Shown here piece by piece: positions 6,062 to 19,379 of a stretch of DNA of 19,379 nucleotides. How positions within the stretch are numbered: position 1 is the stretch's first letter; the number at the start of each line of letters is the position of its first letter. The stretch is from an uncultured Bacteroidales bacterium (GTDB taxonomy: Bacteria; Bacteroidota; Bacteroidia; Bacteroidales; Muribaculaceae), in assembly GCA_949123685.1 (NCBI GenBank), contig CASBHZ010000054.1:1-19379 (forward strand). Reading direction: 5' to 3'. Made by a program: the position numbers and the translations under genes. The notes under the pieces are model-generated. The model searched no databases, had not been told where the DNA came from, and worked only from the letters and a program-made list of their open reading frames with translations.

Positions 6062-7549
6062 TCATTTTACCCCCAATGCCCTGTCAAATTCCGTCGGGAT
6101 AGGCACCCCGAGTTCAAAATCAAACAAAGTCAACTTACGTATCTTATAATAGCTCAGCCAATAATTCTGCAATGACGTGATATAGTTCTTACTTGCCTCC
6201 TGCTGCCGGCTATGTGAAAGCGTAAGGGAGTTTATGTCAGCTTTTCCGATGATGAACCGCTGTAAAGTCTGGGCATAGGCACGGTCGGCAAGATCAAGCG
6301 CCTCCGCTGCGCTCCCGACAAGGCGTTGGCGGCTATTGAAATCGCGCAGGGTTATGACCACATCCTGCTCCATCGACAATTCCTCCTGACGCGCAGCAAT
6401 GCGAGCCACGTTCAGAGTGTTCTTGGCAATGTTATATTTACCTTTCCTGACTCCCCAGTCAACCAAAGGAATAGATACAGACAGCGACACTAAATCCTGC
6501 TGCAAAGGATGGTTATAAGCCTCGCCAAAGGTGCGTGCAACCTGATTAAAACCTACAGAAGCGTTAAGGCTGAGGTTGAACATCGATTCCACCTTGGTCC
6601 TGTTGACATCCCTTTGCGCCTCGAGAACGCTCTGCCGTTTCGACATTATCGCCGGACTGTTCTCACGGGCATATTCCAACGCTTCCTCCTCCTGAATCCT
6701 TATTGCAACAGGCTTTCCCGGCAACATCACCTCTATCTCCGTGTCAGAGTCAAGACCGAGATATGTCGCTAATGAAAGTCTCGCCCGCTCTATTTCTATC
6801 CTGGCATTCTCCAGCGCGTTCTCTGCATTCACCTTGTCGAGCCGCAGGGTGAGGAGGTCGGTCTGGGATATAGCCGCGATACTGAAACGCCGTTCCCCTA
6901 TTATAAGGAGCGTATCGCTCGCCGCAAGGTTCTCTTTTGCAAGACGCAGTTCCGTCTGCGCCAATGCGAGGGCAAAAAAATGGCTCACCGTCTCTTCAGA
7001 AACTGTCTCCATGTTATATACGAACTCCCTTTTCGCCTTTTCATATTTCAAGGGTTCTATCCTTTTCTCCCAACGGAACGCATTGTAACCTATCAAGTCT
7101 TGCCGGTAACCGATCCTCACGGGCACCGATGAAAACTGATTACCCTTCATCGTGCCGAAGTTGCGCATATATTCAAGGTCGCTTTCAAGATATAGCGATC
7201 CGCCGAGGAAATCAACGTTCTGTGTCATGGTCAGCCCCGCGGAGGCAGTATACATCTGCTGGCTGCGGAACACGTCGACATCCTGCTGCGAATCATAACG
7301 CTGGGTGATATAGCGATAATATTGTGCCGGAGTCAGGTTTAGGGAAAGACCCGGAAGGCGGTTAGCCTTGAACGTGCGCCACTCCCAATAACCGGAGGCA
7401 TAAAGGTTACGGTTGCGGAAAGCATTCAGGGAGCTATCGTTGGCAAGTCGCACGGCATCCCCAAGCGACAAGACCATCTTGCCCTCCCCCCGGGCAAGCA
7501 AGCTACCGGCAATCAACGCAACAGTCATTATCAATCTTCCTATCATCAT
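6062..7549 (-). CDS. TolC-family outer-membrane efflux channel
   Basis: About 495 residues, normal for the TolC/OEP family, which forms the outer-membrane and periplasmic tunnel of tripartite pumps. The sequence shows a signal peptide (MMIGRLIMTVALIAGSLLA), an early LSLGDAVRLANDSSL segment typical of OEP repeats, and long amphipathic helices with repeated Leu/Ala/Glu heptads (about 160-250 and 375-455), including AKENLAASDTLL and IGKADINSLTLS. I start it at the ATG at 7547-7549, which gives a clean signal peptide 4 bp after the upstream permease stop. A longer reading from TTG at 7567 would overlap that permease by 14 bp. It sits between two RND permease genes, an unusual order (adaptor, RND, channel, RND), and presumably serves both. 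Confidence 0.92.
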   Translation of the reverse strand: MMIGRLIMTVALIAGSLLARGEGKMVLSLGDAVRLANDSSLNAFRNRNLYASGYWEWRTFKANRLPGLSLNLTPAQYYRYITQRYDSQQDVDVFRSQQMYTASAGLTMTQNVDFLGGSLYLESDLEYMRNFGTMKGNQFSSVPVRIGYRQDLIGYNAFRWEKRIEPLKYEKAKREFVYNMETVSEETVSHFFALALAQTELRLAKENLAASDTLLIIGERRFSIAAISQTDLLTLRLDKVNAENALENARIEIERARLSLATYLGLDSDTEIEVMLPGKPVAIRIQEEEALEYARENSPAIMSKRQSVLEAQRDVNRTKVESMFNLSLNASVGFNQVARTFGEAYNHPLQQDLVSLSVSIPLVDWGVRKGKYNIAKNTLNVARIAARQEELSMEQDVVITLRDFNSRQRLVGSAAEALDLADRAYAQTLQRFIIGKADINSLTLSHSRQQEASKNYITSLQNYWLSYYKIRKLTLFDFELGVPIPTEFDRALGVK

Positions 7550-7553
7550 ATTC

Positions 7554-10500
7554 TCAATTATTCTCAATTAATGCACCTGCTTTCTTCAAACGGCGAGAGC
7601 TGTAAAGCAGATAATAAATAAGCGGTATCACGAAAATGCTGACCAATGTTCCCACCACCATGGACCCGATCATTGCAACGGCAAGAGGTCGCTGCAATTC
7701 AGAACCCATATCTGAAGTGAAAAGCACCGGAACCATCGCAAAGACAGTGGTTAGCGAAGTCATAAGGATCGGTTTGAGCCGTCGTCTTCCGGCGGTATGG
7801 ATCGCCTCGGCGAGAGGCATCCCCTCCTTACGCAATTCATTGATCGAATCCAGCTTAAGGATAGAATCGTTAACCACAATTCCACATGTTACAATTATTC
7901 CGATTGCCGACATAAGGTTGAGCGTTTCCCCGCAGACCCAGAGGGTGAGTAATGCAAAAGAGACATCGATCGGGATTTCCACCAACACGATAAGCGGCTG
8001 GACAAAACTTTCGAACTGCGCACAAAGGATGAAATACATCATAAGCAGCGACACTAACAGAATCACCGTCAGCTCATTCATCATCCTTTGGTTGGAAAAG
8101 ACCGAACCTGAGAACGATACGTCCGGAATACCCTCCATCGTGGCAACCTCTTTCATTTTCTCCATTATTCCTCTGGCGTCACGAGCATCCGCATCAATTT
8201 CCATCGGTAGGTATTCACCCGAACCCGAGGCATTGATAACTCCCAAAGCTTCACGCTTTACCGTATGAGCCAATGCCGACAACGGTATGCCGTCAGTCTT
8301 ACCGTCTTTTCCGACAGCGGAGGGCACAAGAGCCGTTGCAAGCAACTCATCGGGAGAGATTCCGCGATCTGAAATCCTCACGGGTATATAGTCCTGATAT
8401 GAACGCAGTATAGTGGCACGTGAACCTTTGAACGTCACATCGATCGTGTTGCGCACATCAGAAGCGCCGACACCATAGAGAAGCATCCTTTCCGGATCCG
8501 TGCGTATCTCCACTATCTCCTGTCGGGGAATATCTTTCACCGGGACTCCCGCTGCTCCCTCCACCGCACTGCGCAGACGCGCCGCCTTTTCTACCGTTCC
8601 ACCGGCAGAGCCGGTCATAAAACGCGCCTCCAAAGAAGCTTCATCCGAAGAAAACACCTGCTCGAAAGGATTCGACGGAACACTGAACCTACTGACAGCG
8701 AAAGGATATTCCCGCCGTAAAAAAGATGTCAGGGAATCCTTGAACGTCTGCAATTCATCCGGAGCTGAAACCCTGAAATAAAACTCAGTTTCGGAAGATC
8801 CCCTTTCTGCATTATCACCGAGCATGAAATCCTGCCTGCCAACGAAAGCCGCCCATTCTTCATTATCCGCAGCTTTGGCAAGCGCTTCGGCACGCTTGCG
8901 GTTTTCATCGATATTTATATTTTCATTCCAATCTACTGAAAGGATAGTTTCCGCGCTGTCGATATAGGGCAAACGTTCTACATCAAGCGCCTTGACAAGC
9001 GGCACCAAGGCGAACGCAGCAAGCATGGCAAACAACACCGTCCCCATCTTATGGGAAAAGATAAAATCAATACCCTTGTCATACCAACCCCTACCATTTT
9101 CACCCGATCTGTCAACTTCCACTTCCTGCACATTCTTGCCTCTCCTCTTCTCCATTATGGAGACAAGCACCGGCAACAATGTTATTCCCACTATGTAAGA
9201 GGAGAACAGTCCCGCCGTGATAGAAAACGCCTGATCGGCAAATATTGCTCCGGCAATGCCGCTCATGAAAACGAGAGGTAAAAAGACAGCGACAGTGGTC
9301 AGCGAGGAACTGAGCATGGGAGTGATCATTTCTGTTGTGCCTTGCACACAACTGTCTTCCAGGGAATAGCCCCGTTTACGATATTGCATGATGTTCTCCG
9401 CCACGATAACCGAATTGTCAATCATCATGCCGACGGCAAGTATAAGTCCCGCCAAAGAAATGATATTGACAGAGATGTGGAAGAGATAAAAAAGAAGAAA
9501 CGTTATAATCACGGCTACCACGACGGTAAAGCCGATGACCACAGGCATCCTCCAGTTGCGCATGAATAGAGCGCACACAAGGAAAACGAGCACAAGACCC
9601 AAAATCAAGTTCTGGCGCAGGTTGCTTATTGTGAAATCGAGAAGTTCCGTCTGGCTGCGGGTCTTGGTTATGGAGATGTCGGGATATTGAGAAGAGAAAT
9701 ATCCGATAGTGTTATCGATCGCCCTGTCAAGTTCCGCCATGCTCGCCGCCTCATGCTTGATAACAGCCATGGTGACTGCCCTGTGTCCGTTAAACAGTGA
9801 ATAGCCTTGCGCAGGAGATTCCGTGAGTTCCACTTCACAGAAATCCCCAAGGCGGTGCATGCGCCCGTTCTTCATCATGGGCACATTCTCCACATCCTCC
9901 GGAGTGCGCAGTTTTCCTGATATATGGATGCTATATTCATAATAGCCGTCACGAACCGTCATGCTACCCGGTTCGGCATTGTTGTCCTTAAGTGCCGTCT
10001 CCAGATCCGCAAGAGTTATTCCCGCCGATTGCATACGGTCATAGTCGGGAGTTACACGCAATTCCTTCCCGGGAACTCCGGAAATATCCACCAGCGCCAC
10101 TTCCGGCAACTGTTCCAGCCTGCGCCTGATGATATTGTCCGCAACATCATAGAAACCGGGGGTAGGTTCCGAGGCAGACGTCAGCTGAAGATAGGTTACG
10201 GGGATATCAGCCACAGATGCCTTCACAGCCTTGGGGCGACTTATATCACGGGGAAGGGAATTCATCGCCGCGTCAATCTTTTCATTCACCTCGATAAAGG
10301 CGAGATCAGTGTCAACGCCATAATCCATCGTGAGGCGTATAATGCCATAGCCGTCGCGCGTTTCACTGCGGATATCCGACAGTCCGCTCACCTGCATCAG
10401 TTCGCGCCGGAGCGGGGCAACCACCATGTTCTCAAGCTCTCGTGAACCGAGGGAAGCGCCATCCGCCCTAACCGTTATCCGAGGTATGTCGACATCAGGC

Positions 10501-10625
10501 AAGAGCGACACCGGAAGCGTCACGAACGTGACACACCCCAATATCACCAGAGCCAGAAAACTCATCAGCACGGCAATCGGCCGTTGTATCAGGAACCTAA
10601 CCATCAGACATTGTTCATTGCTCAT
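7554..10625 (-). CDS. RND efflux permease A
   Basis: A full-length (1023 aa) RND-superfamily inner-membrane transporter. It has an N-terminal TM1 after MVRFLIQRPIAVLM, a porter domain, TM2-6 from about 338, a second porter half, and a C-terminal bundle ending ELQRPLAVAMIGSMVVGTL. TM4 carries D403-N404 (MMIDNSVIVAEN) and TM10 carries N919 (GIVVNDSIL) in place of the AcrB lysine, as in many non-AcrB RND proteins of Bacteroidetes. The relay therefore differs from the + strand AcrB-type permease in this window. The family consensus start MVRFLIQRP at 10604 is the likelier initiation site, 10 bp after the adaptor stop. The ATG at 10625 overlaps the adaptor by 11 bp. The substrate is unknown. Context suggests a peptide, glycan or other product of this locus rather than drugs. 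Confidence 0.93.
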   Translation of the reverse strand: MSNEQCLMVRFLIQRPIAVLMSFLALVILGCVTFVTLPVSLLPDVDIPRITVRADGASLGSRELENMVVAPLRRELMQVSGLSDIRSETRDGYGIIRLTMDYGVDTDLAFIEVNEKIDAAMNSLPRDISRPKAVKASVADIPVTYLQLTSASEPTPGFYDVADNIIRRRLEQLPEVALVDISGVPGKELRVTPDYDRMQSAGITLADLETALKDNNAEPGSMTVRDGYYEYSIHISGKLRTPEDVENVPMMKNGRMHRLGDFCEVELTESPAQGYSLFNGHRAVTMAVIKHEAASMAELDRAIDNTIGYFSSQYPDISITKTRSQTELLDFTISNLRQNLILGLVLVFLVCALFMRNWRMPVVIGFTVVVAVIITFLLFYLFHISVNIISLAGLILAVGMMIDNSVIVAENIMQYRKRGYSLEDSCVQGTTEMITPMLSSSLTTVAVFLPLVFMSGIAGAIFADQAFSITAGLFSSYIVGITLLPVLVSIMEKRRGKNVQEVEVDRSGENGRGWYDKGIDFIFSHKMGTVLFAMLAAFALVPLVKALDVERLPYIDSAETILSVDWNENINIDENRKRAEALAKAADNEEWAAFVGRQDFMLGDNAERGSSETEFYFRVSAPDELQTFKDSLTSFLRREYPFAVSRFSVPSNPFEQVFSSDEASLEARFMTGSAGGTVEKAARLRSAVEGAAGVPVKDIPRQEIVEIRTDPERMLLYGVGASDVRNTIDVTFKGSRATILRSYQDYIPVRISDRGISPDELLATALVPSAVGKDGKTDGIPLSALAHTVKREALGVINASGSGEYLPMEIDADARDARGIMEKMKEVATMEGIPDVSFSGSVFSNQRMMNELTVILLVSLLMMYFILCAQFESFVQPLIVLVEIPIDVSFALLTLWVCGETLNLMSAIGIIVTCGIVVNDSILKLDSINELRKEGMPLAEAIHTAGRRRLKPILMTSLTTVFAMVPVLFTSDMGSELQRPLAVAMIGSMVVGTLVSIFVIPLIYYLLYSSRRLKKAGALIENN

Positions 10626-11718
10626 TCACCATAGCCTGGTGAGCAAGGTTTTCGTTACCTTCTATAATCACCGTCTGTCCCGCCTCCAGGCCGTCAACAA
10701 TCTCGCGACTGTCAAGATTCTCGATACCGGTAGTGACATAGTTCCACATAGCCTTACCATTCTCCAAAGTGAAGACCACCTCCCTGCCCGAACGGAGCAC
10801 GACCGCACTCTTAGGCACGACCAGCCGCTTTCCGAGGTTCTTGCTGACACGCACACGGGCATTCATCCCGTCTACCATTCCGGATCGGGCACCCAATGAA
10901 GCCCTCACTTTCACAAGTCCCTTGTCATCGACCTTAGGATTTATTTCCGTCACCTTGCCACGGCAGGTTTCCCCGCCCGTGAAGGGTGAAACTTCCACTA
11001 CATCACCCGGACTCAAAAGTGACAGTTCACTTTCCAACACCGGAAACTCCACCTGCATCCCCCCGTCGTTGATAACGCGGCAAGCAGGCTCCGAAGTTAC
11101 CGCAAGACCGAAACGCTTCACCTTAAGATCGGCAATAACGCCATCGAAAGGAGCCGTTAAAGTGGATTGTTCTATCTCCTTTTTATTCAAAGCTACCGAA
11201 GTCTCTATTCCGTCAAGACCGCTACGCACCCTTGCCAGTCGCATAACCTCGTCGGGCACGGAAGACTTGTCGGCGGGATCATAACCTTGCCCTATCAGCA
11301 CGTCCTGCATATCGAGCAAGGCTTTCTCCCTTTCCGACAGCAGTCTGGCACGCTCAGATTCGAGTTTGAAAAGATCAAGACGTGCAAGCTTCTGTCCTTT
11401 CTTCACTCGTTGCCCCTCCCGAACCCAGACTTCGCTCACGGGTTCGGATGCGCGAAAAAAGAGGTCGGCAGTTTCCTTTGCGGTTATCTTGCCATTGCTC
11501 ACGACATCGTGGGTTATCTCCCTCTCTGTAAGTTTTATGGTTTTCACAATCGGCATGCCTCCTTCCGTAGAGGCAGAAAGCTTCTGCGTCTTTGCAGGCG
11601 GAGCAGCCTCTTCACTCTTATTTTTATCTGACGAACACCCCGCTGTCGCTGCAGCAAAAAATATGGATAGGGCTATCGTCTTGATTATCGTTACGTTCAT
11701 GATATTATAGGTTATCAT
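10615..11718 (-). CDS. Periplasmic adaptor (membrane fusion) lipoprotein of RND pump
   Basis: A 367-residue HlyD/AcrA-type adaptor that would join the RND permease to the TolC-like channel. A lipoprotein signal peptide with lipobox TAGC ends near residue 28, so it should be anchored in the inner membrane. The first half of the split lipoyl domain is visible as VSEVWVREGQRVKKGQKLARLD. It is followed by a short helical hairpin (about 115-165), the second lipoyl half (STLTAPFDGVIADLKVKRFG), a beta-barrel and a C-terminal membrane-proximal domain (LVVPKSAVVLRSGREVVFTLENGK). It begins 1 bp after the preceding gene's stop. A second ATG at 11700 gives a more compact signal peptide and is an equally good start. 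Length and domain order are normal. Confidence 0.93.
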   Translation of the reverse strand: MITYNIMNVTIIKTIALSIFFAAATAGCSSDKNKSEEAAPPAKTQKLSASTEGGMPIVKTIKLTEREITHDVVSNGKITAKETADLFFRASEPVSEVWVREGQRVKKGQKLARLDLFKLESERARLLSEREKALLDMQDVLIGQGYDPADKSSVPDEVMRLARVRSGLDGIETSVALNKKEIEQSTLTAPFDGVIADLKVKRFGLAVTSEPACRVINDGGMQVEFPVLESELSLLSPGDVVEVSPFTGGETCRGKVTEINPKVDDKGLVKVRASLGARSGMVDGMNARVRVSKNLGKRLVVPKSAVVLRSGREVVFTLENGKAMWNYVTTGIENLDSREIVDGLEAGQTVIIEGNENLAHQAMVNEQ

Positions 11719-11719
11719 A

Positions 11720-13123
11720 TCAGTCGGTTAAGTAAGTATTACACTTGTTCATTATTCCAGAGAGTTCCTTTCGCATTTCCCGTGTGGCAGGTGATTCCAC
11801 TTTTACCTGTAGCGCCATTGCCTCTTCATATGCCTTTCTGAATTTACCGGCAGAACCCTCGCCTCCATTTGCATAAAGCTTTGTCAGAAGATAATATGGA
11901 TAAAGACGGTTCGGCAACCTGTTGCGCGCCCTTATATAATATTTCTCTGCATCTACAACTTCCCCCTTGTCTTCATAATTACGCCCTATAAGGTTGAGGA
12001 ACATAGGGTCACTACTGATTTCCACACCTTTCTTAAGCACCATATTCGATTTATCAAAATGTCCGTTGCCACGCAACGCTTTCCCATAATCAAAAAGGTA
12101 CCGGACACTCCACCCCATTTCATCCATTAAGGAATCACATTCTGCAATCATATTGTCTGACAGGTTGTAGCGTATCATATTGCTCATCCGTTCCCATTCC
12201 CCAGCTTGCCGTTTCCTTTTCATGATTCCATAAGAGGGCACGGACACCAATGCCATCATAATTGCGCATAACCCCGCTTTGCTCCACAAAGGGAACTTAC
12301 ACAGACTGAACACGATTGCGACACCGATAAGGAAAACCAACAGATAAAACTCCGCAAACTGCAGAGGATATGAGGAGAAACAGACTGCCGCGAAAGCGGT
12401 CACCGCCCCGCAGAGTCCATAGCTGCGCAATCTCCATGTCACAACCATTCCCAAAACTACAAGCGCGACAATAGCAATGAACCCCGCAAAGCCGAATGCT
12501 ATCCCCAACTGTAGATATTCGTTAAATACATATTCCGGAGCACCTGCCACCGAAGCGAACGGTGAATCCGGATGAAGCATGAAATAATCTTCCTGCGCCT
12601 TTCCGAACGCACCGGCTACACGATCCCAGCCGACACCCAACGGGTGAGCGATCATAGCCCTGAAAGCCACCATCCACATCAGCACCCTCCCTTGCGCCGA
12701 TTCAGGTTTGATGAGATAAAGCAACGCGAGAGCAATGCATATAATGGCTATCGCGGAAATGATATATACACCGGTTCTCCATTTCTTAAATGAATGACTC
12801 ACTCCGGCATAACGACCTGCGGCTACAATCCCGCAACCGAGAATAGCTGCGATCCAGCCCGTACGCCCCATCAATGCGGGCATTATACCTATAGACAGAA
12901 CCAGATATGCCAATGAAAGCCAACGCAAAACCTTCTTATTAGCTGACAATGTTTCATTTAGCGCGACAGGAACGATGACCGCAAGAAAACAGCAGAATGG
13001 ACCGGGATTATAGAAAGTGCCGGTTGCCGGATACATGGAATTGCCGGAGGCTGCGAACCCGAAAAGTTGCAACCATCCGAAAACACATTCAATCAATCCG
13101 AAAACAACGATCAGTTGAGCCAT
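11720..13123 (-). CDS. O-antigen ligase/Wzy-family polytopic membrane protein with helical C-terminal tail
   Basis: A 467-residue protein, about nine TM segments over the first 305 residues and then a soluble helical region (about 310-460) that looks TPR-like. Family features (Wzy_C, PF04932) are TGTFYNPGPF (35-43), GRVLMW (145-150) followed by HPLGVGW (160-166), and the signature VFNEYLQLGIAFGFAGF (199-215). The family includes O-antigen ligases, polymerases and protein O-oligosaccharyltransferases that transfer lipid-linked glycans in the periplasm, so glycosylation of a secreted product is possible but unproven. It lacks several N-terminal TMs usual in relatives, so it may be a short form. 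I start it at ATG 13123, overlapping the signal peptidase stop by 13 bp. The frame is open back to 13171. Confidence 0.85.
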   Translation of the reverse strand: MAQLIVVFGLIECVFGWLQLFGFAASGNSMYPATGTFYNPGPFCCFLAVIVPVALNETLSANKKVLRWLSLAYLVLSIGIMPALMGRTGWIAAILGCGIVAAGRYAGVSHSFKKWRTGVYIISAIAIICIALALLYLIKPESAQGRVLMWMVAFRAMIAHPLGVGWDRVAGAFGKAQEDYFMLHPDSPFASVAGAPEYVFNEYLQLGIAFGFAGFIAIVALVVLGMVVTWRLRSYGLCGAVTAFAAVCFSSYPLQFAEFYLLVFLIGVAIVFSLCKFPLWSKAGLCAIMMALVSVPSYGIMKRKRQAGEWERMSNMIRYNLSDNMIAECDSLMDEMGWSVRYLFDYGKALRGNGHFDKSNMVLKKGVEISSDPMFLNLIGRNYEDKGEVVDAEKYYIRARNRLPNRLYPYYLLTKLYANGGEGSAGKFRKAYEEAMALQVKVESPATREMRKELSGIMNKCNTYLTD

Positions 13124-13998
13124 TTCATCACCCTTTCTTTCCTTATTTCCCCATCGCGTTCCGACCACCATACCATCAAAGCACGCCCGACAATAAACGG
13201 TTCAGGCACGAATCCCCAATAACGGGAATCCTGGGAATCACCGGAATTATCTCCCGCCATGAAATAATAATTCTCCCTGAAGCGGTATGTGCTCACCGGT
13301 TTGCCTCCCAACGTCAACACTTCCCCCTCTTTCTTGAGTTTGCTCTTGGTTTCCCACTCTATCGCCTTCTTATAAGGGAGATAGTTTCCGGGGCTGAGAC
13401 TTATCTCTTCCCCTTTCCGGGGTATATAAAGCGGGCCGAGATCCCTTATTGTCCAGCACGTTACCGAATCTTTCTTGAATGCATTGAATCCCGGCAATGA
13501 ATCGCGACTGAGCGAATCGGGTGCATATATCTCTCTCACCGACAAGCGATCTCCGCCCCCTTCGGATGGTACACCGTTAATATAATAATCAAAATCCTTG
13601 ATTTCAAGCACGTCACCCGGAGCCCCGACACATCTCTTGGCGTAATACACCCTGTAATTCATGTCGATCTTCCGCCATTCCCCACGAAAAGGAAAATTGA
13701 AGACCAATATATCGCCACGTTTGAATTTCCGGAATCGGGGCATACGGCGGATCTTTATATCTTCACCTGCGGCAGCATCGAAAATATCAAACAGACGCGC
13801 GCCCGTAGTCACCTTGTCTACCAACACCTTGTCTCCGGGCTGCAGCGCCGGCAACATCGACTCGGAGGGGATATTGAAAGATGCGAAAAGAAACAGATGC
13901 CAGATAACAAACAGAAAAAAGCCGATGCTGGCAACGAACAGCACGTTCTCCACCCACTTCCCTGCCTTGCTCCACCGGCGTTTCCATTTCTCATCCAT
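13111..13998 (-). CDS. lepB: Signal peptidase I (S26 family)
   Basis: A 295-residue inner-membrane serine protease that removes Sec signal peptides using a Ser-Lys dyad. One N-terminal TM anchor spans about 18-40. Box B is PSESMLPALQPGDKV with catalytic S47. Box D is KRCVGAPGD with general-base K121. Box E is AGDNSGDSQDSRYWGFVP near the C terminus. All catalytic elements are present, with a large insertion between boxes D and E (about 140-250) as in other Bacteroidetes enzymes. It is the first gene of the operon, 64 bp downstream of a canonical promoter, and its stop overlaps the next gene. A housekeeping copy probably exists elsewhere. Being first in an operon for a membrane glycan enzyme and an exporter, beside secreted-peptide genes, suggests a dedicated processing role (inference). 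Confidence 0.95.
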   Translation of the reverse strand: MDEKWKRRWSKAGKWVENVLFVASIGFFLFVIWHLFLFASFNIPSESMLPALQPGDKVLVDKVTTGARLFDIFDAAAGEDIKIRRMPRFRKFKRGDILVFNFPFRGEWRKIDMNYRVYYAKRCVGAPGDVLEIKDFDYYINGVPSEGGGDRLSVREIYAPDSLSRDSLPGFNAFKKDSVTCWTIRDLGPLYIPRKGEEISLSPGNYLPYKKAIEWETKSKLKKEGEVLTLGGKPVSTYRFRENYYFMAGDNSGDSQDSRYWGFVPEPFIVGRALMVWWSERDGEIRKERVMKWLN

Positions 13999-14005
13999 AA
14001 AGCAA

Positions 14006-14050
14006 TTACAACTCTGCGAAAGACATCCAGGCTGCCCTCTGTTTAGACAT
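14006..14050 (-). other. Possible 14-codon upstream ORF in the operon leader
   Basis: Between the promoter and the signal peptidase gene an ATG at 14048-14050 opens a 14-codon frame (MSKQRAAWMSFAEL). Its stop lies 7 bp before the signal peptidase ATG. Its start would be only a few bases from the expected transcription start. Such short frames arise by chance, so I offer it only as a candidate leader peptide. Confidence 0.15.
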
Positions 14051-14061
14051 AATTTAATTTA

Positions 14062-14093
14062 CAAAGATAGCGAATTGGAATATAACATCCAAA
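14062..14093 (-). promoter_or_regulatory. Canonical Bacteroidetes promoter for the export operon
   Basis: On the - strand TTTG (14093-14090) is followed after exactly 20 bp by TATCTTTG (14069-14062). This fits the Bacteroidetes primary-sigma consensus (TTTG at -33, TAnnTTTG at -7). The predicted start is near 14055, giving a leader of roughly 57 nt before the signal peptidase ATG. No other equally good promoter was seen before the end of the operon, so it may drive all six genes (about 10.9 kb). Confidence 0.8.
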
Positions 14094-14182
14094 ATAAAAA
14101 TCTATCATTGCTTTCTTTTGGCATATTTTACATACATAAGCATCAGCCGTTTATAAAAATTGATTTCATAAAAATCTATCAT
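14094..14182. repeat. Pair of 15-bp direct repeats upstream of the operon promoter
   Basis: ATAAAAATCTATCAT occurs identically at 14094-14108 and 14168-14182, 74 bp apart start to start. The proximal copy directly abuts the -33 TTTG box of the operon promoter. The arrangement is what paired operators for an activator or repressor would look like. No regulator gene is in the window. Confidence 0.55.
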
Positions 14183-14240
14183 CGAAATAACGCGTCATAA
14201 CATCGGTCAATCTTACGGCTGGATTTCCGGAATTTAGACC

Positions 14241-15314
14241 TTACTCGTATCTGACAAGGTGAAATATCTCGTTACCTTCATTATCTATCGAATTTATGAT
14301 CGCAATGAACCGGTCTTGTTCATCAACACAGAAAGTATTTAAACCCTCAGGAACATGTATGATCGACTGTGGCACGCCATCCCAGTCAACCTTTACTATA
14401 TGCGATTCAACAAGGTCATACCCCCGATTATCCTCAAGGGGCATTTCTTTTAAACGTCGCAAATAAACGCCGTTCCCGGAAGCATAGCCCGGTGCATATC
14501 TGATATAGCCGGCAGGTGACAGATCAAAAAATTTCTTTATGCTTTCATTAATATCAAACCCATCGCCCGATAAATTTACACTCTTAAGAAGATTCCCTTT
14601 GAAATCGTATACATAATACATGTCGAAATAATATTGAGAAACTACGATACGGTCCTTATTTCGATTGGCGTTTATAATGGAGGAAAGGTAGGATGGAGAT
14701 CTTTGGAGCATTTTCATAGACTCTTCCGATAGTTCAAAAGGATATGCTACCGGTTTCTGATCATTTGCTTCTATATCTGTAATATTAAAGAGATTATCGA
14801 ATTTCATGATAGTATGTGAAACAGCCGTATCCCCCCAATAATTAATAGAGCCCTCTTGCATAAGTATCTTAGGCATTCGCGTTTTCCTAAGCATAAGACT
14901 ATCGGCATAAACTGAAACAATCTCATTCAGGTTGCCGTCATATAAGCAAAGACCGCCATCTGCCGAAACATAATGGTTGTTGAAGAAAGAGGGAGATAAA
15001 ACATCATTCGGACCATTTCCCTTTATCGCTAAAGGTTTAATCTCCTTGGTATCCATGTCCATTACTTTGATTACCGTATCCTGTTGCGCGAACAGCAATA
15101 CCAGTTTATCTCCATGTTTTTCTACCCTTACGGGATAATCATGCGAAAAAGAGTAAAGCGTGTCAACTGGCTGCAACTCTTTAATATCAACGTCAGAAAA
15201 CTCCTCATTTAGAACATCCATTTCAAGCTTTGCCACTTTACTCTGTTTGTTGCAAGCCGACAACAACAAAACCAAAAACAGTAATCCATAAAAGGATACT
15301 AACATTTTTTTCAT
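14241..15314 (-). CDS. 6-bladed beta-propeller lipoprotein (BF3164/TolB-like)
   Basis: A 357-residue exported lipoprotein starting at ATG 15314 (MKKMLVSFYG), with lipobox LLLSAC and acylated C21. The rest is beta-rich with repeated blade-like strands such as RVEKHGDKLVLLF, LCLYDGNLNEIV and YYVYDFKGNLLKSV. The motif KGNGPND at 98-104 is a hallmark of the Bacteroidales 6-bladed propeller/BF3164 family. The molecular function of the family is unknown, and envelope binding or sensing is likely. The frame stays open upstream to a GTG at 15416 for 34 more codons. That segment is part of a duplicated leader block, and it would place a charged 34-residue extension before a normal signal peptide, so I prefer 15314. 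It lies upstream of the export operon, separated by that operon's own promoter. Confidence 0.82.
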   Translation of the reverse strand: MKKMLVSFYGLLFLVLLLSACNKQSKVAKLEMDVLNEEFSDVDIKELQPVDTLYSFSHDYPVRVEKHGDKLVLLFAQQDTVIKVMDMDTKEIKPLAIKGNGPNDVLSPSFFNNHYVSADGGLCLYDGNLNEIVSVYADSLMLRKTRMPKILMQEGSINYWGDTAVSHTIMKFDNLFNITDIEANDQKPVAYPFELSEESMKMLQRSPSYLSSIINANRNKDRIVVSQYYFDMYYVYDFKGNLLKSVNLSGDGFDINESIKKFFDLSPAGYIRYAPGYASGNGVYLRRLKEMPLEDNRGYDLVESHIVKVDWDGVPQSIIHVPEGLNTFCVDEQDRFIAIINSIDNEGNEIFHLVRYE

Positions 15315-15448
15315 TTCTTTGATGTTTTTGAGGTTCATTAAAATTATGTTATTTAAATTTAATTCGCATAGTCTGCTATGCTCTTTCTTCAACTTTTTGT
15401 ATTCTATCGCAGACACCTCTTTCTATGAATAGAATTATCCTCTACTAT
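15303..15448 (-). repeat. Leader repeat A, copy 1, with conserved hairpin
   Basis: About 146 bp nearly identical to 18232-18401. On the - strand it runs into the start of the propeller lipoprotein gene. It contains the hairpin GCATAG-TCTG-CTATGC (15366-15381). In copy 2 the stem is unchanged and only the loop differs. A 34-codon frame from GTG 15416 runs through the block in frame with the gene. In the aligned codons there are three amino-acid changes, two synonymous changes and no indels between copies. Confidence 0.85.
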
Positions 15449-15597
15449 ATAAGTCACATTTCAAAAAAAAATCTATAGGTGAATTTGGTAAAAAATATTA
15501 AAATTTATAAACAAGCCAGGTTTCCATAACAAAGCTTGCAATCAAATTACGACTTACCCTCTTCAAACGATTAATATCTATTCTTTTATCCTCCAAT
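15449..15597 (-). repeat. Leader repeat B, copy 1
   Basis: About 149 bp matching 18701-18845 with only a handful of substitutions and a 2-bp length difference in an A run. Here it is directly joined to repeat A, whereas in the second copy the two are separated by an insert of about 300 bp. The motif AAAAATCTAT (15467-15476) next to CAAA recalls the sequence beside the export-operon promoter. Confidence 0.85.
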
Positions 15598-15801
15598 CAC
15601 TTACAACCACGAAACAACCACCTCAAGATGCAAAAAAATCTTTTTTGAGAGTAAATGTACAAATGGCTGTTATGTGGTTGTGGGTGGTTGGAGTTGTGAA
15701 TCCTTGAGTGAATTCTTCGAATCAGATTTTGACTCTTCCATTCCAATCCATATTCATTATTTAGCATCCAACCACTTACAACCACGGAACAACCACATCA
15801 A
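15592..15801. repeat. 35-bp direct repeats with an inverted partial copy between them
   Basis: A 35-bp unit beginning TCCAA(T/C)CACTTACAACCAC occurs at 15592-15626 and 15767-15801 with three mismatches. A reverse-orientation partial copy, GTGGTTGTGGGTGGTTGGA, lies at 15674-15692. The whole 210-bp segment may be a REP- or MITE-like element. It lies in the 560-bp gap 15315-15874, which also holds leader repeats A and B and otherwise no convincing gene. A 62-codon - strand frame through it is explained by the repeats. Confidence 0.6.
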
Positions 15802-15874
15802 AATATATTAAAAGGATACCTTATAACCCTTCTTATCATATTCATAACCACTATATCAATATTAAATTACCCAA

Positions 15875-16759
15875 TTATTTTAAGAATCCGTGGAAGACAA
15901 GCCTCTCCGGATTATTCCGTTCCTTGAAAAACACATCTACATAGCGGTAAAACTGTTGAGGAACGCTATCTGCGACATAACATACGATTATGTCCATGTT
16001 ATTCCCACTCAACAAAGTATCAGTCTCAGCAACGGCAGATATACAATGACATGACGGAACCATCTCCTGTATTGTTAAGGTTTCTTTATCTGTATTTATC
16101 AAGCGAAATTTTTTTGAGATGGTGTCACCTTTATTAACAATTCCAAGACTTTGAACCGGCTCATAACACAAAGGTTTATTTACAACGGCATCAAAGCTAT
16201 CCGTACCATCTTGATTGAATATGATTCCTTTATAAAACTCTTTTATTTTAGGATTGTCTACAGGATTGCCTATGGCGAGCACCTTATTGTTACCATCAAG
16301 AAGAAATGTTTGATAATCTGACTTTTCAGGCAGGACATTCATAGCATAATAATCTCCCCTCGAATCTATTGCCACGGGATGATTGAAATTATTTTGTTTA
16401 AGTAACGTCTCAACAACGACCTTTTCGTCCGTGTTTATTACCATCAAAAAATTGATTGCAACATCAGGTGAAGATTTTAATTCATTAATAAATTTATCCC
16501 AGCTTTTTAATTTCATTTTACAGCTGGTACATCCATCTGAGTCAATATATGTCACAATCTTGAAATCTGCATTGAAAAAATCATAATCGATAAAGTTACC
16601 GCCAACCCGATACTTCAAATTTGAAGGAATTATAATTTCTTTACCTACCCATTCCTCAACAACTTTCCTGTGATCCTTATCAATTGTTGTACAAGAAGAA
16701 ATTAATGGTATTATGGCAATAATTGATAAAAACAATTGAAACACATTATTCATAAACAT
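15875..16759 (-). CDS. Lipoprotein with thioredoxin-like and DUF1573-like domains
   Basis: About 294 residues from ATG 16759. A lipoprotein signal peptide ends at LISSC (C23). An N-terminal alpha/beta domain carries DGCTSCKMKL (C77-C80), a CxxC in the position of a thioredoxin active site, followed by NHPVAIDSRGDYYAMN and a TFLLDGNNKVLAIGNP strand typical of TlpA/AhpC-like folds. The C-terminal part (about 195-294) has the DUF1573 pattern: FRLINTDKETLTIQEMVPSC, then HC. A redox or disulfide role toward the neighbouring cysteine-rich NVEALA peptide is an attractive inference. The frame is open to GTG 16813, five bases after the propeller stop, but that start adds a second hydrophobic stretch. 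A decayed paralogue of its 3' end lies at 19115-19195. Confidence 0.8.
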   Translation of the reverse strand: MFMNNVFQLFLSIIAIIPLISSCTTIDKDHRKVVEEWVGKEIIIPSNLKYRVGGNFIDYDFFNADFKIVTYIDSDGCTSCKMKLKSWDKFINELKSSPDVAINFLMVINTDEKVVVETLLKQNNFNHPVAIDSRGDYYAMNVLPEKSDYQTFLLDGNNKVLAIGNPVDNPKIKEFYKGIIFNQDGTDSFDAVVNKPLCYEPVQSLGIVNKGDTISKKFRLINTDKETLTIQEMVPSCHCISAVAETDTLLSGNNMDIIVCYVADSVPQQFYRYVDVFFKERNNPERLVFHGFLK

Positions 16760-16818
16760 AGGTAAATTAAGCAAATAACAAAGCACAACTAAGAACTTGT
16801 ATTTCAATGTCACACATG

Positions 16819-17976
16819 TTACTTACTATTAATAATATTTCTTTGTGGAAGTTGGAAGCTATATATCAAGAACTGCGATTTATCATCCGTTTCTATAGGA
16901 ATAAACCGGATTCCATAATATCGATTCCCATATTTACCAAGCAGTTTAAAATATGATGGCATCAATTTTTCTATAATCAGGTCATTGTCTCTATAGACCT
17001 GCATGACTGTCACGCCTGAAGAAAAATCTTTCATTGTGGTCCTAAACAATAATTGAGACTCGTCATCATAATACAATCCGGTATTGACACCAACTTCTTC
17101 AATATCTGCCTTAAAATTTTCTATAGACACATCAAATCCTTTCGTATAATTACGATTTATACCTTCCGGCTCAAAACCGAATGTATTAATAAGATCTCCA
17201 TTTAAATCATAACGATATATTAATGAATCCGGAGCATGATTCACGAATATTTGTGAATCAGCTTTATCAACAGCATAGTCGAAAAACTCAAAAAACGGCA
17301 GAGGGCTATCAGAATAAAAATCTGGAAATGATCCCCACAGATTTTCAATCTTAAGAGTGTTAAGATTCAATTTACCCAATATTTTGCCTTTCTCATATCG
17401 CGTTTTCGAAGTTTCACTAAAATTACGGTTAATTAAAGATAATGGCACAAGAATAGTTGAATCATCGATACAAGTTAACTTCATACCGAAATCACTCATT
17501 TCCAAAGGAGTATAATTAGAAACCGAAGAATAGTCATTTTTTGCAGGTTTGTCCCACCCCAAATCAATACGACCCTTGTATTTCACCATTCCTTTTGTGG
17601 ATATAAACTCATATATTCCATATGAAGAATCAAATATCCACATTGCTGTGTCTCCTGGATTAACAGGTGTACCATACATTATACCTACCATTTCGTTTGG
17701 TCCTTGTCCATATCCCGAATAAGTACAATTTAAATCTCCATTAATTCGATCATATGAAAAAATCTTGCAATATAATTGATCTACAAACATAATGGTAGAA
17801 TCTAACATTACAAAATTACCTCTGAGACTGGTAGTATCTGCGTTCGCAGCTACACTATCAATCTCTAAATTCACATTATATGGTTTACGGCTTCCCATAT
17901 GGGAAGCCGTTTTTACTCGTGAGCAACTGCATGCCAGCATACTCACGAGTAAAAATATAAATAGCTTCTTTCCCAT
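16819..17976 (-). CDS. 6-bladed beta-propeller lipoprotein
   Basis: A 385-residue exported protein. The signal peptide MGKKLFIFLLVSMLACSCS holds two possible lipidated cysteines (C16 or C18). The signature GYGQGPNEMVG at 88-98 matches the Bacteroidales 6-bladed propeller/BF3164 group. Blade-like strands follow (AMWIFDSSYGIYEFISTKG, SLIYRYDLNGDLINTFGFEP). It starts 6 bp after the NVEALA peptide gene stops, and the thioredoxin/DUF1573 lipoprotein gene follows, so the three form one operon. Its first 30 codons contain two adjacent perfect inverted repeats, described separately. Function is unknown for the family. Pairing with a small secreted peptide suggests a receptor, chaperone or immunity-like partner, but the sequence does not decide. 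Confidence 0.85.
   Translation of the reverse strand: MGKKLFIFLLVSMLACSCSRVKTASHMGSRKPYNVNLEIDSVAANADTTSLRGNFVMLDSTIMFVDQLYCKIFSYDRINGDLNCTYSGYGQGPNEMVGIMYGTPVNPGDTAMWIFDSSYGIYEFISTKGMVKYKGRIDLGWDKPAKNDYSSVSNYTPLEMSDFGMKLTCIDDSTILVPLSLINRNFSETSKTRYEKGKILGKLNLNTLKIENLWGSFPDFYSDSPLPFFEFFDYAVDKADSQIFVNHAPDSLIYRYDLNGDLINTFGFEPEGINRNYTKGFDVSIENFKADIEEVGVNTGLYYDDESQLLFRTTMKDFSSGVTVMQVYRDNDLIIEKLMPSYFKLLGKYGNRYYGIRFIPIETDDKSQFLIYSFQLPQRNIINSK
17887..17955 (-). promoter_or_regulatory. Two adjacent perfect inverted repeats inside the propeller gene start
   Basis: 17887-17910 is a perfect 24-bp palindrome (half site ACGGCTTCCCAT). Immediately beside it TTTTTACTCGTGAG (17910-17923) pairs perfectly with CTCACGAGTAAAAA (17942-17955) around an 18-nt loop. 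They cover codons 8-30 of the lipoprotein. On the + strand the palindrome is followed by TTTTT, the form of an intrinsic terminator. In the gene's own direction no U tract follows. Confidence 0.75.
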
Positions 17977-17982
17977 TTTTAC

Positions 17983-18243
17983 TTAACGACAGTTACTATC
18001 ATAATTGGAGCAAGGGTTACCTCCACAATATGATCCAGACGCATTTGCGGAACACACATTAGAAGTGAACCATTTTGTTTTGCAGAAACAAGATACTGTT
18101 TGGGAGCCACCTTCTCCACTGGACAAAGCCTCTATGTTGGCAAACTCTAAGTCATTTAGATTGTTTTCAGGATTGAAATAAACATATCCCAATCCAATTC
18201 CAACGGAAACTATGGCAATTGCCAATACTAACACTTTTTTCAT
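17983..18243 (-). CDS. NVEALA-type secreted peptide precursor, cysteine-rich
   Basis: An 86-residue precursor. An N-terminal signal/TM segment (MKKVLVLAIAIVSVGIGLGY) is followed by an acidic spacer and the motif FANIEALSSGEGG at 34-46, the family signature (NVEALA, PF14055) with I for V. The C-terminal 40 residues hold six cysteines (52, 54, 64, 73, 78, 85) and many Asn/Ser/Gly, suggesting a compact mature peptide with up to three disulfides. The GEGG just before it may mark a processing site, by analogy with double-glycine leaders (inference). I start at ATG 18243. The open frame to GTG 18345 is the duplicated leader A. It is the first gene of a three-gene operon with the propeller and the thioredoxin/DUF1573 lipoprotein. 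Family function is unknown. Confidence 0.82.
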   Translation of the reverse strand: MKKVLVLAIAIVSVGIGLGYVYFNPENNLNDLEFANIEALSSGEGGSQTVSCFCKTKWFTSNVCSANASGSYCGGNPCSNYDSNCR

Positions 18244-18401
18244 TTCTTTAATGTTTTTAAGGTTAATTAAAATTGTGTTATTTAAATTTAATTCGCATAG
18301 TTTGCTATGCTCTTTCTTCAACTTTTTGTATTCTATCGCAGACACCTCTTTCTGTGAATTTCTGTGAATAGAATTACCCCTATACTATATAGGTCATATT
18401 T
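18232..18401 (-). repeat. Leader repeat A, copy 2
   Basis: Near-identical to 15303-15448, here leading into the NVEALA peptide gene. It keeps the hairpin GCATAG-TTTG-CTATGC (18295-18310) and the in-frame 34-codon segment from GTG 18345. It carries a small tandem duplication (TCTGTGAAT at 18351-18359 and 18361-18369) that is single in copy 1. It ends at GTCATATTT (18393-18401), the left border of the insert. Confidence 0.85.
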
Positions 18402-18702
18402 TAGTAGATGACAAAAATTAATTTGTAAAAGTTCTTAAAAATTAGTAATTTAAAGAAAAAGTTTGACCGCTTTTTTTACATAAAAATCACTAATTCCAAG
18501 GACTTGGTCAAAGTTAACCAAATCCTCCCGATTATGCAAGAGCATTTTGGACAAAGTTTGAATCTGGTACGCATAAAGCTCAGAAGAAAGGCGAAGTCAC
18601 TTGTCAAGTATGGCTTGGAAGAGATTGCAACCATACTCATGTGACCGGCTTATACCACTAAATTCGATGTTTTTCAAATTTTTTGTCATGTCGTACTTAA
18701 AA
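18402..18702. mobile_element. Insert splitting leader repeats A and B, with possible transposase remnant
   Basis: Copy 1 shows A and B contiguous, so these roughly 300 bp are extra. They are flanked by GTCATATTT (18393-18401) and GTCACATTT (18703-18711), an imperfect 9-bp direct repeat resembling a target-site duplication. A + strand frame at about 18483-18555 reads KITNSKDLVKVNQILP, then HFGQSLNLVRIKL, and then decays. It reminds me of the N terminus of IS4-type transposases in Bacteroides, but this is from memory and unverified. No terminal inverted repeats are obvious. No other gene was seen here. Confidence 0.45.
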
Positions 18703-18845
18703 GTCACATTTCAAAAAAATCTATAAGTGAATTTGGTAAAAAATATTAAAATTTATAAACAATCCAGGTTTCCATAACAAAGCTTGCAATCAAATTACTA
18801 CTTACCCTCTTCAAACAATTAACATCCATTCTTTTATCCTCCAAC
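18701..18845 (-). repeat. Leader repeat B, copy 2
   Basis: Matches 15449-15597. On the - strand it begins 9 bp after the stop of the NVEALA gene at 18854-19084. The AAAAATCTAT motif recurs at 18715-18724. Confidence 0.85.
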
Positions 18846-18850
18846 TTCAT
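18746..18850 (-). CDS. Candidate 34-aa small ORF directly after an NVEALA gene
   Basis: ATG 18850 follows the tandem stops of the NVEALA gene by three bases and opens a 34-codon frame beginning MKLEDKRMDVNCLKR and ending in WIVYKF. An internal Met is preceded by GGAGGATAAAAGA. The same frame is open in repeat B copy 1 but without either ATG. The five differences inside it all change amino acids, so there is no sign of selection for protein sequence. It could be a small coupled product or only the relic of a longer gene. Confidence 0.2.
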   Translation of the reverse strand: MKLEDKRMDVNCLKRVSSNLIASFVMETWIVYKF

Positions 18851-18853
18851 TTA

Positions 18854-19084
18854 TTACCAGGGAGTTCCCGGGCAGCTCTTGTCACCGCCTGCGTTACATT
18901 GCCAATAAGAGGGATTAATGTATTTGACATACCAAAGACCATTGCCGCTCTCCCCGCTAACAAGCGCTTCGACATTCGCCATCTGTATGTCTGACATTGC
19001 ATCTTTCTGTTGCGCGTTTACTTCCACGTAAGCAGAAACTCCCAGAAGCGCCACTACGGCAGCGAAAATGATTCTCTTTTTCAT
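18854..19084 (-). CDS. NVEALA-type secreted peptide precursor
   Basis: A 76-residue precursor. The signal peptide MKKRIIFAAVVALLGVSA runs to a good signal peptidase I site after VNA (A24). A short acidic spacer then leads to MANVEALVSGESG at 35-47, the NVEALA family motif. The C-terminal 30 residues (GLWYVKYINPSYWQC, then CPGTPW) are aromatic-rich with two cysteines (63, 71), very different from the six-cysteine tail of the neighbouring precursor. The conserved leader with a variable tail is typical of secreted peptide families. Two consecutive stop codons end the gene. Directly upstream lies a decayed DUF1573 remnant, and repeat B follows. No convincing promoter was recognised. Confidence 0.85.
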   Translation of the reverse strand: MKKRIIFAAVVALLGVSAYVEVNAQQKDAMSDIQMANVEALVSGESGNGLWYVKYINPSYWQCNAGGDKSCPGTPW

Positions 19085-19114: not shown

Positions 19115-19195
19115 TTATTTTACGAATCCGTGGAGGATGAGTCTCTCAAGATTCGGTATTTCTCTTTGAACCGGACACCGACATAGCGGTGGAAC
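19115..19195 (-). pseudogene. Frameshifted 3' remnant of a DUF1573 lipoprotein gene
   Basis: About 80 bp align with the 3' end of the gene at 15875-16759. The - strand reads QFHRYVGVRFKEK, then shifts frame and continues as PNLERLILHGFVK and a TAA stop, against QFYRYVDVFFKER and NPERLVFHGFLK in the intact copy. A one-base length difference breaks the frame, and homology ends near 19195. This shows that another peptide/propeller/DUF1573 unit once stood here. Confidence 0.7.
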
Positions 19196-19236
19196 TGCTA
19201 AAAATTGTATTGGCAGAAGTGGCAGCATTGACAAAA

Positions 19237-19379
19237 TCAATAAAAGATCTGTCTCTTTAGAGAATGATCATATTCAAATATTCTCTCATCTTTGCCACCT
19301 GTGTGGTTTTTTAGGTATAATAAGGCACCTTTGGGTATCCTATAGTGCAACACATCAGTTTGAGTCTTCTGTTTTCCCA
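19237..19379 (-). CDS. C-terminal end of an unrecognised gene, cut by the window edge
   Basis: The - strand is open from the window edge to a TGA at 19237-19239, giving about 46 residues, including VLHYRIPKGALLYLKNHTGG and ERIFEYDHSLKRQIFY. The composition looks like real protein. From memory it resembles C-terminal ends of Bacteroidales surface proteins with transglutaminase-like domains, but I cannot verify that and the visible part is short. Bases 19196-19236 hold nothing I recognise. Confidence 0.35.
   Translation of the reverse strand, partial: GKQKTQTDVLHYRIPKGALLYLKNHTGGKDERIFEYDHSLKRQIFY

Follow-up and report, generated by a model that had tools for sequence, protein, structure and literature searches.

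Modular NVEALA peptides, their propeller lipoproteins and a putative secretion route in gut Bacteroidales

Why should genes for small peptide precursors of the NVEALA family lie on the same strand as genes for propeller lipoproteins, a thiol-redox lipoprotein, a signal peptidase, an O-antigen ligase-like protein and a double-permease exporter? The question is raised by a contig of an uncultured Bacteroidales bacterium of the Muribaculaceae (GenBank assembly GCA_949123685.1, contig CASBHZ010000054.1), whose 19,379 nucleotides were analysed as a whole and are referred to as the window. A preliminary description of this DNA had proposed a single route that makes, processes, perhaps glycosylates and exports a small peptide. 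The gene content on which it was based, namely two NVEALA precursors (N1 and N2), two propeller lipoproteins (P1 and P2), a lipoprotein with a thioredoxin-like CxxC motif and a DUF1573 domain (T), an S26 signal peptidase I, a Wzy_C protein (Wzy) and an adaptor-RND-TolC-RND exporter, is confirmed by profiles and coordinates (Table 1). To this we add the pairing of peptide tails with propellers, the modularity of leader and tail, a transglutaminase-like lipoprotein (TG) and a regulator, and the whole inclines us, with some reserve, towards a secretion system dedicated to small peptides with disulfide bonds, which are made on a modular precursor and of which each tail has its own propeller.

Conserved neighbours of the NVEALA genes

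Two samples of loci were assembled. For the first, genome contigs were scanned with 22 relatives of Wzy and the best 80 of 352 loci, short contigs included, were used to build gene-family profiles (S26, propeller, TG, T etc.). The second was drawn by NVEALA alone (PF14055 above cut-off), took in 58 of 64 clusters and was compared with 20 evenly spaced control regions from three of its genomes. All p-values given here ignore relatedness among genomes. Because the propeller profile misses P1-type propellers, propeller counts are lower bounds, and locus L036 lies outside the 157 precursor-propeller pairs discussed below. Among the best 80 Wzy-drawn loci, S26 was present in 70, propeller and TG in 62 each, T in 50, NVEALA and adaptor in 47 each, RND in 46 and a TolC-like gene in 40. 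In 47 of these 80, S26 precedes Wzy by no more than 400 bp, and in 29 of the 69 loci with enough sequence the adaptor follows Wzy by no more than 1 kb. The labelled genes of locus L041 follow the order N-P-N-P-T-TG-S26-Wzy-adaptor-RND-TolC-RND, to which L053 and L071 are closely similar.

In the 58 NVEALA clusters a propeller occurs 57 times and T 36 times, followed by TG (23), S26 (16), Wzy (13), adaptor (10), RND (9) and TolC-like genes (7), whereas the 20 controls contain TG, adaptor and TolC-like genes in one region each and propeller, T, S26, Wzy or RND in none. The preliminary description had considered that the linkage might be accidental; the preference for propellers and T, together with the co-occurrence of S26 and Wzy, does not support this, and we reject it on these counts and on the co-occurrence of the adaptor in two families (see below). 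Six loci overlap others (L207, L185, L219, L182, L218 and L184). When they are dropped, propeller is found in 51, T in 31, TG in 17, S26 in 12, Wzy in 11, adaptor in 8, RND in 7 and TolC-like genes in 6 of 52, so that the shares of TG, S26 and Wzy fall slightly and the conclusions are unchanged. Going 3' from a precursor, the first labelled gene is a propeller on the same strand in 78 of 94 cases in the first sample and 97 of 121 in the second, and 610 of 620 core genes have the orientation of their nearest precursor.

Whole genomes give a similar picture. PF14055 is above cut-off in 6 of 149 genomes of the order, 19 of 121 of the family of P. vulgatus (Bacteroidaceae) and 5 of 79 of the family of Muribaculaceae bacterium Isolate-036; these three samples partly overlap, G001 and G032 each being in two of them. 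With the thresholds set for co-occurrence (NVEALA E ≤ 0.001, Wzy E ≤ 1e-20), Wzy is carried by 22/26 NVEALA-positive against 19/95 negative Bacteroidaceae (Fisher 2e-9), by 6/8 against 9/141 genomes in the order sample (Fisher 9e-6) and by 5/6 against 5/73 Muribaculaceae (Fisher 6e-5). Close orthologues of the window adaptor (48–82% identity) were found in 5 of the 79 Muribaculaceae genomes, all five NVEALA-positive (5/6 against 0/73, Fisher 3e-7), the other matches among those listed being at most 33% identical; likewise, the adaptor of locus L017, from Phocaeicola vulgatus ATCC 8482, is present (E ≤ 1e-50) in 22/26 positive and 8/95 negative Bacteroidaceae (Fisher 8e-14). The nearest relative of the window Wzy in the genome scan, at 69%, is that of Isolate-036, whose adaptor is 82% identical. 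Five of the eight NVEALA-negative adaptor carriers were inspected. In the four with the closest adaptor orthologues (G156, G225, G207 and G265, loci L241–L244) a propeller gene lies beside the adaptor, with no labelled NVEALA or Wzy in these surroundings, and the adaptor region of G203 contains a weak, previously missed precursor along with Wzy, S26 and TG. S26 is an additional copy in G007 and G345, each of which has one beside Wzy and one elsewhere.

Modular precursors and their propeller partners

The 211 precursors with an aligned motif start with MKK and a hydrophobic segment, and their leader closes with a conserved LSDLALA-NVEALA-xxE end (the closing residue is E in 155 of about 197 and G in 9), after which comes a variable tail. 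Cysteine accounts for 8.6% of tail residues versus 0.9% of leader residues. Among 198 unique tails of at least 10 residues, 159 have an even, non-zero number of cysteines, 38 an odd number and one has none (binomial 8e-19, ignoring relatedness). Clustering of 193 tails placed 74 in 16 families of at least three members, with the Cys frame largely kept across genera, and a single genome can have up to 20 NVEALA matches. As the preliminary description had noticed, the window precursors differ in their tails (two Cys versus six, 11 of 46 alignment columns identical). The NVEALA, TG and propeller proteins that were scanned reached the cut-off of no NCBIfam family.

Leaders follow the genome rather than the tail. 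Outside the class I precursors described below, leaders that belong to different tails of the same genome have a mean similarity of 0.60 (246 pairs), compared with 0.39 between genomes for the same tail (76 pairs) and 0.31 for different tails (10,999 pairs), a difference reached by none of 1000 label permutations; class I leaders show no genome effect (0.24–0.28 in every comparison). N1 itself shares 32 of 42 leader and motif positions with two precursors of Isolate-036 (G007), and 10/49 and 11/49 positions with their tails. Such figures suggest that the precursors are modular, a genome-typical leader being joined to a varying tail, class I leaders excepted; and the likeness of leaders within a genome suggests a single leader-reading machinery in each.

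Propellers, on the other hand, go with the tail. Over 157 precursor-propeller pairs (12,120 inter-locus comparisons) the correlation is 0.685 between tail and propeller and 0.033 between leader and propeller; these values become 0.574 and 0.118 when class I is excluded, and 0.690 and 0.038 when overlapping loci are dropped. For loci with at least two pairs each, cognate propellers were more similar than the best non-cognate ones in 65 of 66 locus pairs (53 of 54 without overlapping loci, comprising 33 class I comparisons and 21 others), and a Mantel test over all pairs gave 0.74 for tail and propeller, above 500/500 permutations. The pairing suggests that the tail is read by a partner. As far as co-inheritance goes, precursor and propeller form a linked, co-inherited and specific pair in the manner of toxin and immunity genes.

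N2 and P1 are the intact pair of the window; N1 is not directly followed by a propeller, and no peptide gene adjoins P2, whose homologue in L213 is directly 3' of an NVEALA gene. The propeller nature of P1 is suggested by its homologues and by a modest model. P1 has two relatives among the loci searched, one in L036 (40%), the other, in B. fragilis L061, being a fragment at the locus edge. L036 was discarded as a counter-example to the pairing, as its propeller had been missed by the profile and a direct search identified it as the P1 homologue; the precursor before it is identical to N2 at 31 of 44 tail positions and 15 of 37 leader positions. A tail with the N2 frame, forecast beforehand for the B. 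fragilis precursor upstream of the P1-type propeller, was found in L240 (4450-4731), where six Cys stand in that frame, a single loop is shorter by one residue and the tail ends alike. L240 comprises a divergently oriented regulator, two precursor-propeller pairs (class I with a TolB-like propeller, and N2-type with P1-type), a DUF1573 protein and T.

Many propellers do not directly follow a precursor. A directly preceding precursor is lacking in 65/142 and 41/133, i.e. 106/275 (with double counting of some loci; of 122 examined, 9 may have a precursor that was overlooked), while the next labelled gene is not a propeller for 40 of 215 precursors. Propellers without a precursor directly before them fit resistance or eavesdropping. 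In an automatic alignment of 160 propellers only the lipobox Cys (150/160) and a GxGP motif are conserved, and an enzymatic function of the whole set is not favoured because so few residues are conserved; class I propellers share many more residues than the whole set, and for them such a role is conceivable. Foldseek listed many propellers as matches to a propeller model, including the Bacteroides lipoprotein BT2095 bound to cyanocobalamin. Of 40 propellers scanned outside class I, 25 matched PF15869 and 20 PF17170; P1 matched neither.

One kind of tail stands apart by its neighbour. The class I profile (C-x-G-x-G-S-V-D-C-P and variants) matches 36 of the 211 precursors, and a regulator gene lies within 300 bp of 30 of these against 2 of the 175 others (Fisher 4e-28; 28/34 against 2/169 on distinct precursors, Fisher 3e-26); 7 of the 39 regulators have no precursor within that distance. 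The regulator consists of a transmembrane segment, a periplasmic domain of ~160-190 residues, a second transmembrane segment and a cytoplasmic winged helix of OmpR/PhoB type, as in membrane one-component regulators. Two or more hydrophobic segments were present in 18 of 20 (two loci counted twice), PF00486 was above cut-off in 2 of 5 scanned, and a model (pLDDT 88.9) shows a PhoB-like domain, on which all of the 50 best PDB matches listed fall, none of them naming a peptide sensor. Class I propellers are well conserved and belong to PF15869 in 18 of 19 scanned. Neither a class I gene nor the regulator was seen in the window.

Candidate processing and export proteins, and the layout of the window

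The remaining neighbours include plausible enzymes. Relatives of T have CxxC in 65 of 68 and a Cys in the lipobox region in 62 of 68, and a local thiol enzyme is meaningful because Bacteroides is said, in passages of PMC6671954, to lack general disulfide machinery. Cys, His and Asp are each present in 60 of 60 TG relatives, PF01841 being above cut-off in L047 (29.7 vs 23) and below it in L041 and L021. The window S26 matches the signal peptidase I profile (Table 1), and its relatives retain Ser (75/78) and Lys (78/78) of what we take to be the catalytic dyad, its positions being assigned, like the catalytic residues of TG and WaaL, from motifs assumed here.

TG has another side to it: chains named carbohydrate binding family 6 (2yb7, 5e-23) and CBM32 (2jd9, 4e-4) are similar to its C-terminal part, and such carbohydrate-binding-module-like C-terminal domains, found in L041 (5000-7012), L047 (11401-13371) and relatives, hint at a possible glycan link. 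Between TG and S26, L041 also encodes a glutaminase-A-like protein (7003-8883; PF16335/PF17168), with ORFs of the same size at that place in L053 and L070.

The Wzy family aligns with the O-antigen ligase WaaL (7tpg, E 4e-4) and keeps an Arg, but all 92 relatives have Phe in place of the WaaL His, which presumably is catalytic, in the context FNE instead of HND. As this His is missing, glycosylation of the peptide by the Wzy-like protein, which the preliminary description had put forward with a 'perhaps', is weakened and appears not to be supported by the family's sequences. All three parts of a tripartite RND exporter (adaptor, RND permease and outer membrane factor) are encoded in the window, and its cluster permeases reached the cut-off of none of the 11 NCBIfam families listed (best 510.5 and 327.3 bits, cut-off 1250). 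In L021 and L047, where no RND follows Wzy, an ABC exporter had seemed possible at that place by gene size; Pfam identified the genes as histidine kinase, AAA, DUF4435, MscS, LptF/G, RibBA and aminotransferase instead. Anti-phage defence was likewise set aside, nine proteins giving no match in PADLOC.

All cluster genes, from the TG end to RND permease 2, are encoded on the minus strand and head Table 1 in their 5' to 3' order. Besides this common strand, the tight spacing first described is seen from S26 to the last RND, where neighbours overlap or are 1 nt apart with the starts as given. A gap of 242 nt separates P2 from S26 and, with the promoter-like site it contains, weakly suggests that S26 to RND is a transcription unit of its own, apart from the upstream cassette. 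The pattern used, which we take to be the Bacteroidetes promoter consensus, matches twice in the window, the other match being inside P1, with 0.47 expected and at least two in 16 of 200 shuffles.

Table 1. Features of the window and the evidence for each.
Feature	Position	Strand	Evidence or remark
TG, C-terminal end of transglutaminase-like lipoprotein, open at window edge	19237..19377	-	hmmsearch with TG profile from related loci; resembles TG C-terminal consensus; no Pfam match of its own
Possible remnant of Trx/DUF1573 C-terminus	19115..19197	-	vs 15875-15955: 82% over 39 nt, 74% over 35 nt
N1, NVEALA precursor, 2-Cys tail	18854..19084	-	PF14055 41.0 bits, cut-off 27
N2, NVEALA precursor, 86 aa, 6-Cys tail	17983..18243	-	PF14055 29.1 bits, cut-off 27
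P1, probable propeller lipoprotein, partner of N2 tail	16819..17976	-	homologues behind N2-type tails; propeller-like model pLDDT 67.7; no Pfam cut-off reached
T, thioredoxin-like CxxC + DUF1573 lipoprotein	15875..16759	-	PF07610 50.1 bits; start ATG 16759 or earlier
P2, propeller lipoprotein without adjacent NVEALA gene	14241..15314	-	homologue L213 18352-19371 (1.7e-22); no Pfam cut-off reached
S26 signal peptidase I paralogue	13111..13998	-	PF10502 111.9 bits
Wzy_C-like membrane protein with C-terminal TPR-like region	11720..13123	-	PF04932 41.5 bits, cut-off 31.7; TPR sub-threshold
RND periplasmic adaptor	10615..11718	-	TIGR01730 142.9 bits
RND permease 1	7554..10625	-	PF00873 (ACR_tran) 578 bits
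TolC-like outer membrane factor	6062..7567	-	PF02321 (OEP) 112 bits
RND permease 2	3130..6060	-	PF00873 (ACR_tran) 376 bits
Bacteroidetes-type promoter-like site before S26	14062..14093	-	TTTG-N20-TANNTTTG
D1 repeat, copy 1, spanning the 5' flank and first codons of N2	18225..18359	-	95% to 15296-15430
D1 repeat, copy 2, spanning the 5' flank and first codons of P2	15296..15430	-	95% to 18225-18359
D2 intergenic repeat, copy 1	18713..18844		95% to 15465-15596
D2 intergenic repeat, copy 2	15465..15596		95% to 18713-18844
Sequence split into two pieces in a relative	18401..18700		87-89% to L207 of Isolate-036, pieces ~0.9 kb apart there

Other sequences of the window deserve a brief mention. The D1 and D2 repeats were considered as a general motif of such loci and rejected, since among the loci searched they were seen in the window alone. 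The stretch split in Isolate-036 is possibly the remnant of an insertion element, through which the propeller of N1 may have been lost. The region 15585-15813 contains two repeats, one direct (54 nt) and one inverted (29 nt), and resembles sequence in L209. Positions 47-117 resemble, with errors, what we assume to be an uncleaned Illumina adapter. Right after it starts a convergent ORF (122-3064, plus strand) that is without the first ~75 profile positions and codes for an RND permease that, in contrast to the two of the cluster, is of the ordinary type, with 1030.5 bits for TIGR00915 (cut-off 940.35).

Proposed mechanism, alternatives and known systems

The families and their neighbourhood suggest the following order of steps. 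Sec would translocate the precursor through the inner membrane; cleavage near NVEALA would fall to the extra S26 peptidase, possibly also to the Cys-His-Asp protein TG; T would form the disulfides; the Wzy-like membrane protein would recognise or tether the leader rather than transfer a glycan; and the adaptor-RND-TolC-RND complex would expel the peptide, whose tail would be bound by its propeller, most likely as self-protection or receptor. Self-sensing is the more specific part of the claim because the conserved class I peptide adjoins the regulator: together with the TolB-like propeller they would most likely provide a self-signal controlling production. Going further, we can only tentatively picture a communication-and-antagonism system in which the genome-specific leader takes all peptides through one Sec/S26/TG/T/RND-TolC route, a class I pheromone is read by the TolB-like propeller and the membrane-bound winged-helix regulator, hypervariable class II (i.e. 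non-class-I) payloads are neutralised or received by their own propellers, and propeller arrays give resistance to the peptides of neighbours.

Several observations weigh against a dedicated secretion system with paired propellers. Expression and secretion of the peptides, and their binding by propellers, are predictions from sequence. The single linked route of the preliminary description is well supported by neighbourhoods and genome co-occurrence, but glycosylation apart, it also falls short in the local linkage of the exporter, which is not significant in the NVEALA sample (adaptor 10/58 vs 1/20, p 0.27; RND 9/58 vs 0/20, p 0.10; nor for TolC-like genes, 7/58 vs 1/20). Most NVEALA neighbourhoods are without Wzy, S26 and RND, which therefore would have to act in trans. 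NVEALA-negative Bacteroidaceae still have Wzy (19/95) or the adaptor (8/95); among the positive ones, G191 (its NVEALA evidence being a single hit, below threshold, in a 988-aa frame) and G201 have neither, G226 and G259 no Wzy, and G158 and G227 no adaptor, and in the other samples G115, G128 and G305 are without Wzy. An odd number of Cys is found in 38 tails. Finally, tail and propeller may be paired because adjacent genes are inherited together and not because the two bind, although the leader, which belongs to the same gene, scarcely tracks the propeller; the leader's Mantel correlation is small (0.09) yet above all 500 permutations, so that the leader is not wholly independent of the propeller.

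The weak local linkage, and the adaptor in NVEALA-negative Bacteroidaceae, are what one would expect if the RND-TolC-RND operon were an ordinary efflux pump merely beside the peptide genes. We regard this as improbable in view of the adaptor's distribution between NVEALA-positive and negative genomes in both families, its closeness to Wzy (1 kb or less in 29 of the 69 loci with enough sequence) and the divergence of the cluster permeases from named families. As to the peptides, a purely antagonistic role would make the class II tails antibacterial and the propeller an immunity protein, with class I and the regulator switching production on. Polymorphic tails with a linked cognate partner, the many NVEALA matches of some genomes and the commoner occurrence of propellers without precursors than of the reverse are in its favour, as is the company of Cys-rich peptides and a thiol-redox protein, described for bacteroidetocins in passages of PMC6671954. 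Killing, however, is a prediction from sequence, Cys frames conserved across genera fit receptors equally well, and the library behind the negative PADLOC result covers anti-phage defence. We know of no propeller that acts as an immunity protein, which counts against antagonism as well and leaves it doubtful.

Signalling would turn the peptides into pheromones, the propellers into receptor or co-receptor lipoproteins and the variable tails into strain-specific channels. The regulator beside class I (30/36) and the conserved PF15869 propellers of that class speak for it, but next to other precursors the regulator is nearly absent (2/175) and the matches of its model concern DNA binding and not peptide sensing, and to extend this role to all tails seems rather doubtful to us. 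Propeller lipoproteins are also known to recapture vitamin B12, and secreted Cys-rich peptides might similarly bind a metal or another ligand and be recaptured by surface propellers, among whose listed structural relatives is the cyanocobalamin-bound BT2095. In B. thetaiotaomicron VPI-5482, BT0662, BT0664, BT0667 and BT0669 appear in the iron-stimulon table of PMC10434189, with opposite signs and second-column values of 0.11-0.35; by their annotation there, the genes BT0662-BT0669 are similar to the window locus. No uptake transporter was present among the genes profiled, however, and the diversity of tails is hard to square with one ligand, which makes capture quite improbable.

We thus return to a dedicated secretion system with modular precursors and tail-specific propellers. 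It looks like an undescribed system of Bacteroidales that may signal to, or fight, neighbouring bacteria; a literature search, beyond whose reach were most subscription papers and bioRxiv, gave no paper with the word 'NVEALA' and no description of such a system. It offers a first testable reading for NVEALA, the PF15869/DUF5128 propellers, the DUF1573-thioredoxin, the transglutaminase-like lipoprotein and the Wzy-like TPR protein of gut Bacteroidales, and proposes Gram-negative peptide export via RND-TolC and a peptide linked to a regulator. Should the peptides act between cells, they would represent a layer of gut communication or competition that is directly testable.

Parts of the system have known relatives. 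N1 and N2 are members of PF14055, whose family model gives no function and to which leader-tail modularity and the partners are added here. The propellers are relatives, in sequence and fold, of PF15869, PF17170 and PF16288 proteins and of the solved BF0058 (4raa, titled putative exported protein), P1 and P2 being below every Pfam cut-off. With WaaL (7tpg/7tpj) the Wzy relatives share the Wzy_C domain and the aligned Arg; they differ in the Phe at the aligned His and in an added TPR-like region.

Bacteroidetocins, as passages of PMC6671954 present them, are similar in that the peptides are small, contain Cys and have a leader, and in that a thiol oxidoreductase is linked to them; theirs is a 15-aa leader cut after GG, with an ABC transporter/peptidase. 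NVEALA precursors do not have such a short GG-ended leader, but a Sec-type one with NVEALA and mostly xE, accompanied by S26, RND-TolC and a linked propeller; no peptidase/ABC transporter was found among the window genes or the representatives scanned, a search that did not extend to all loci. In Gram-positive class II bacteriocin loci with an inducing pheromone, one leader type serves signal-like and variable peptides alike, with partner proteins and a regulator. The NVEALA loci share with them the common leader type, the conserved signal-like and variable peptides, the linked partners and the regulator, and differ in that the recurrent set is without a GG-ABC exporter or a kinase/response-regulator pair and has a membrane one-component regulator and propeller lipoproteins instead. 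Machinery and partner fold match no system that we know of, and the logic resembles that of leader-directed bacteriocin and pheromone loci.

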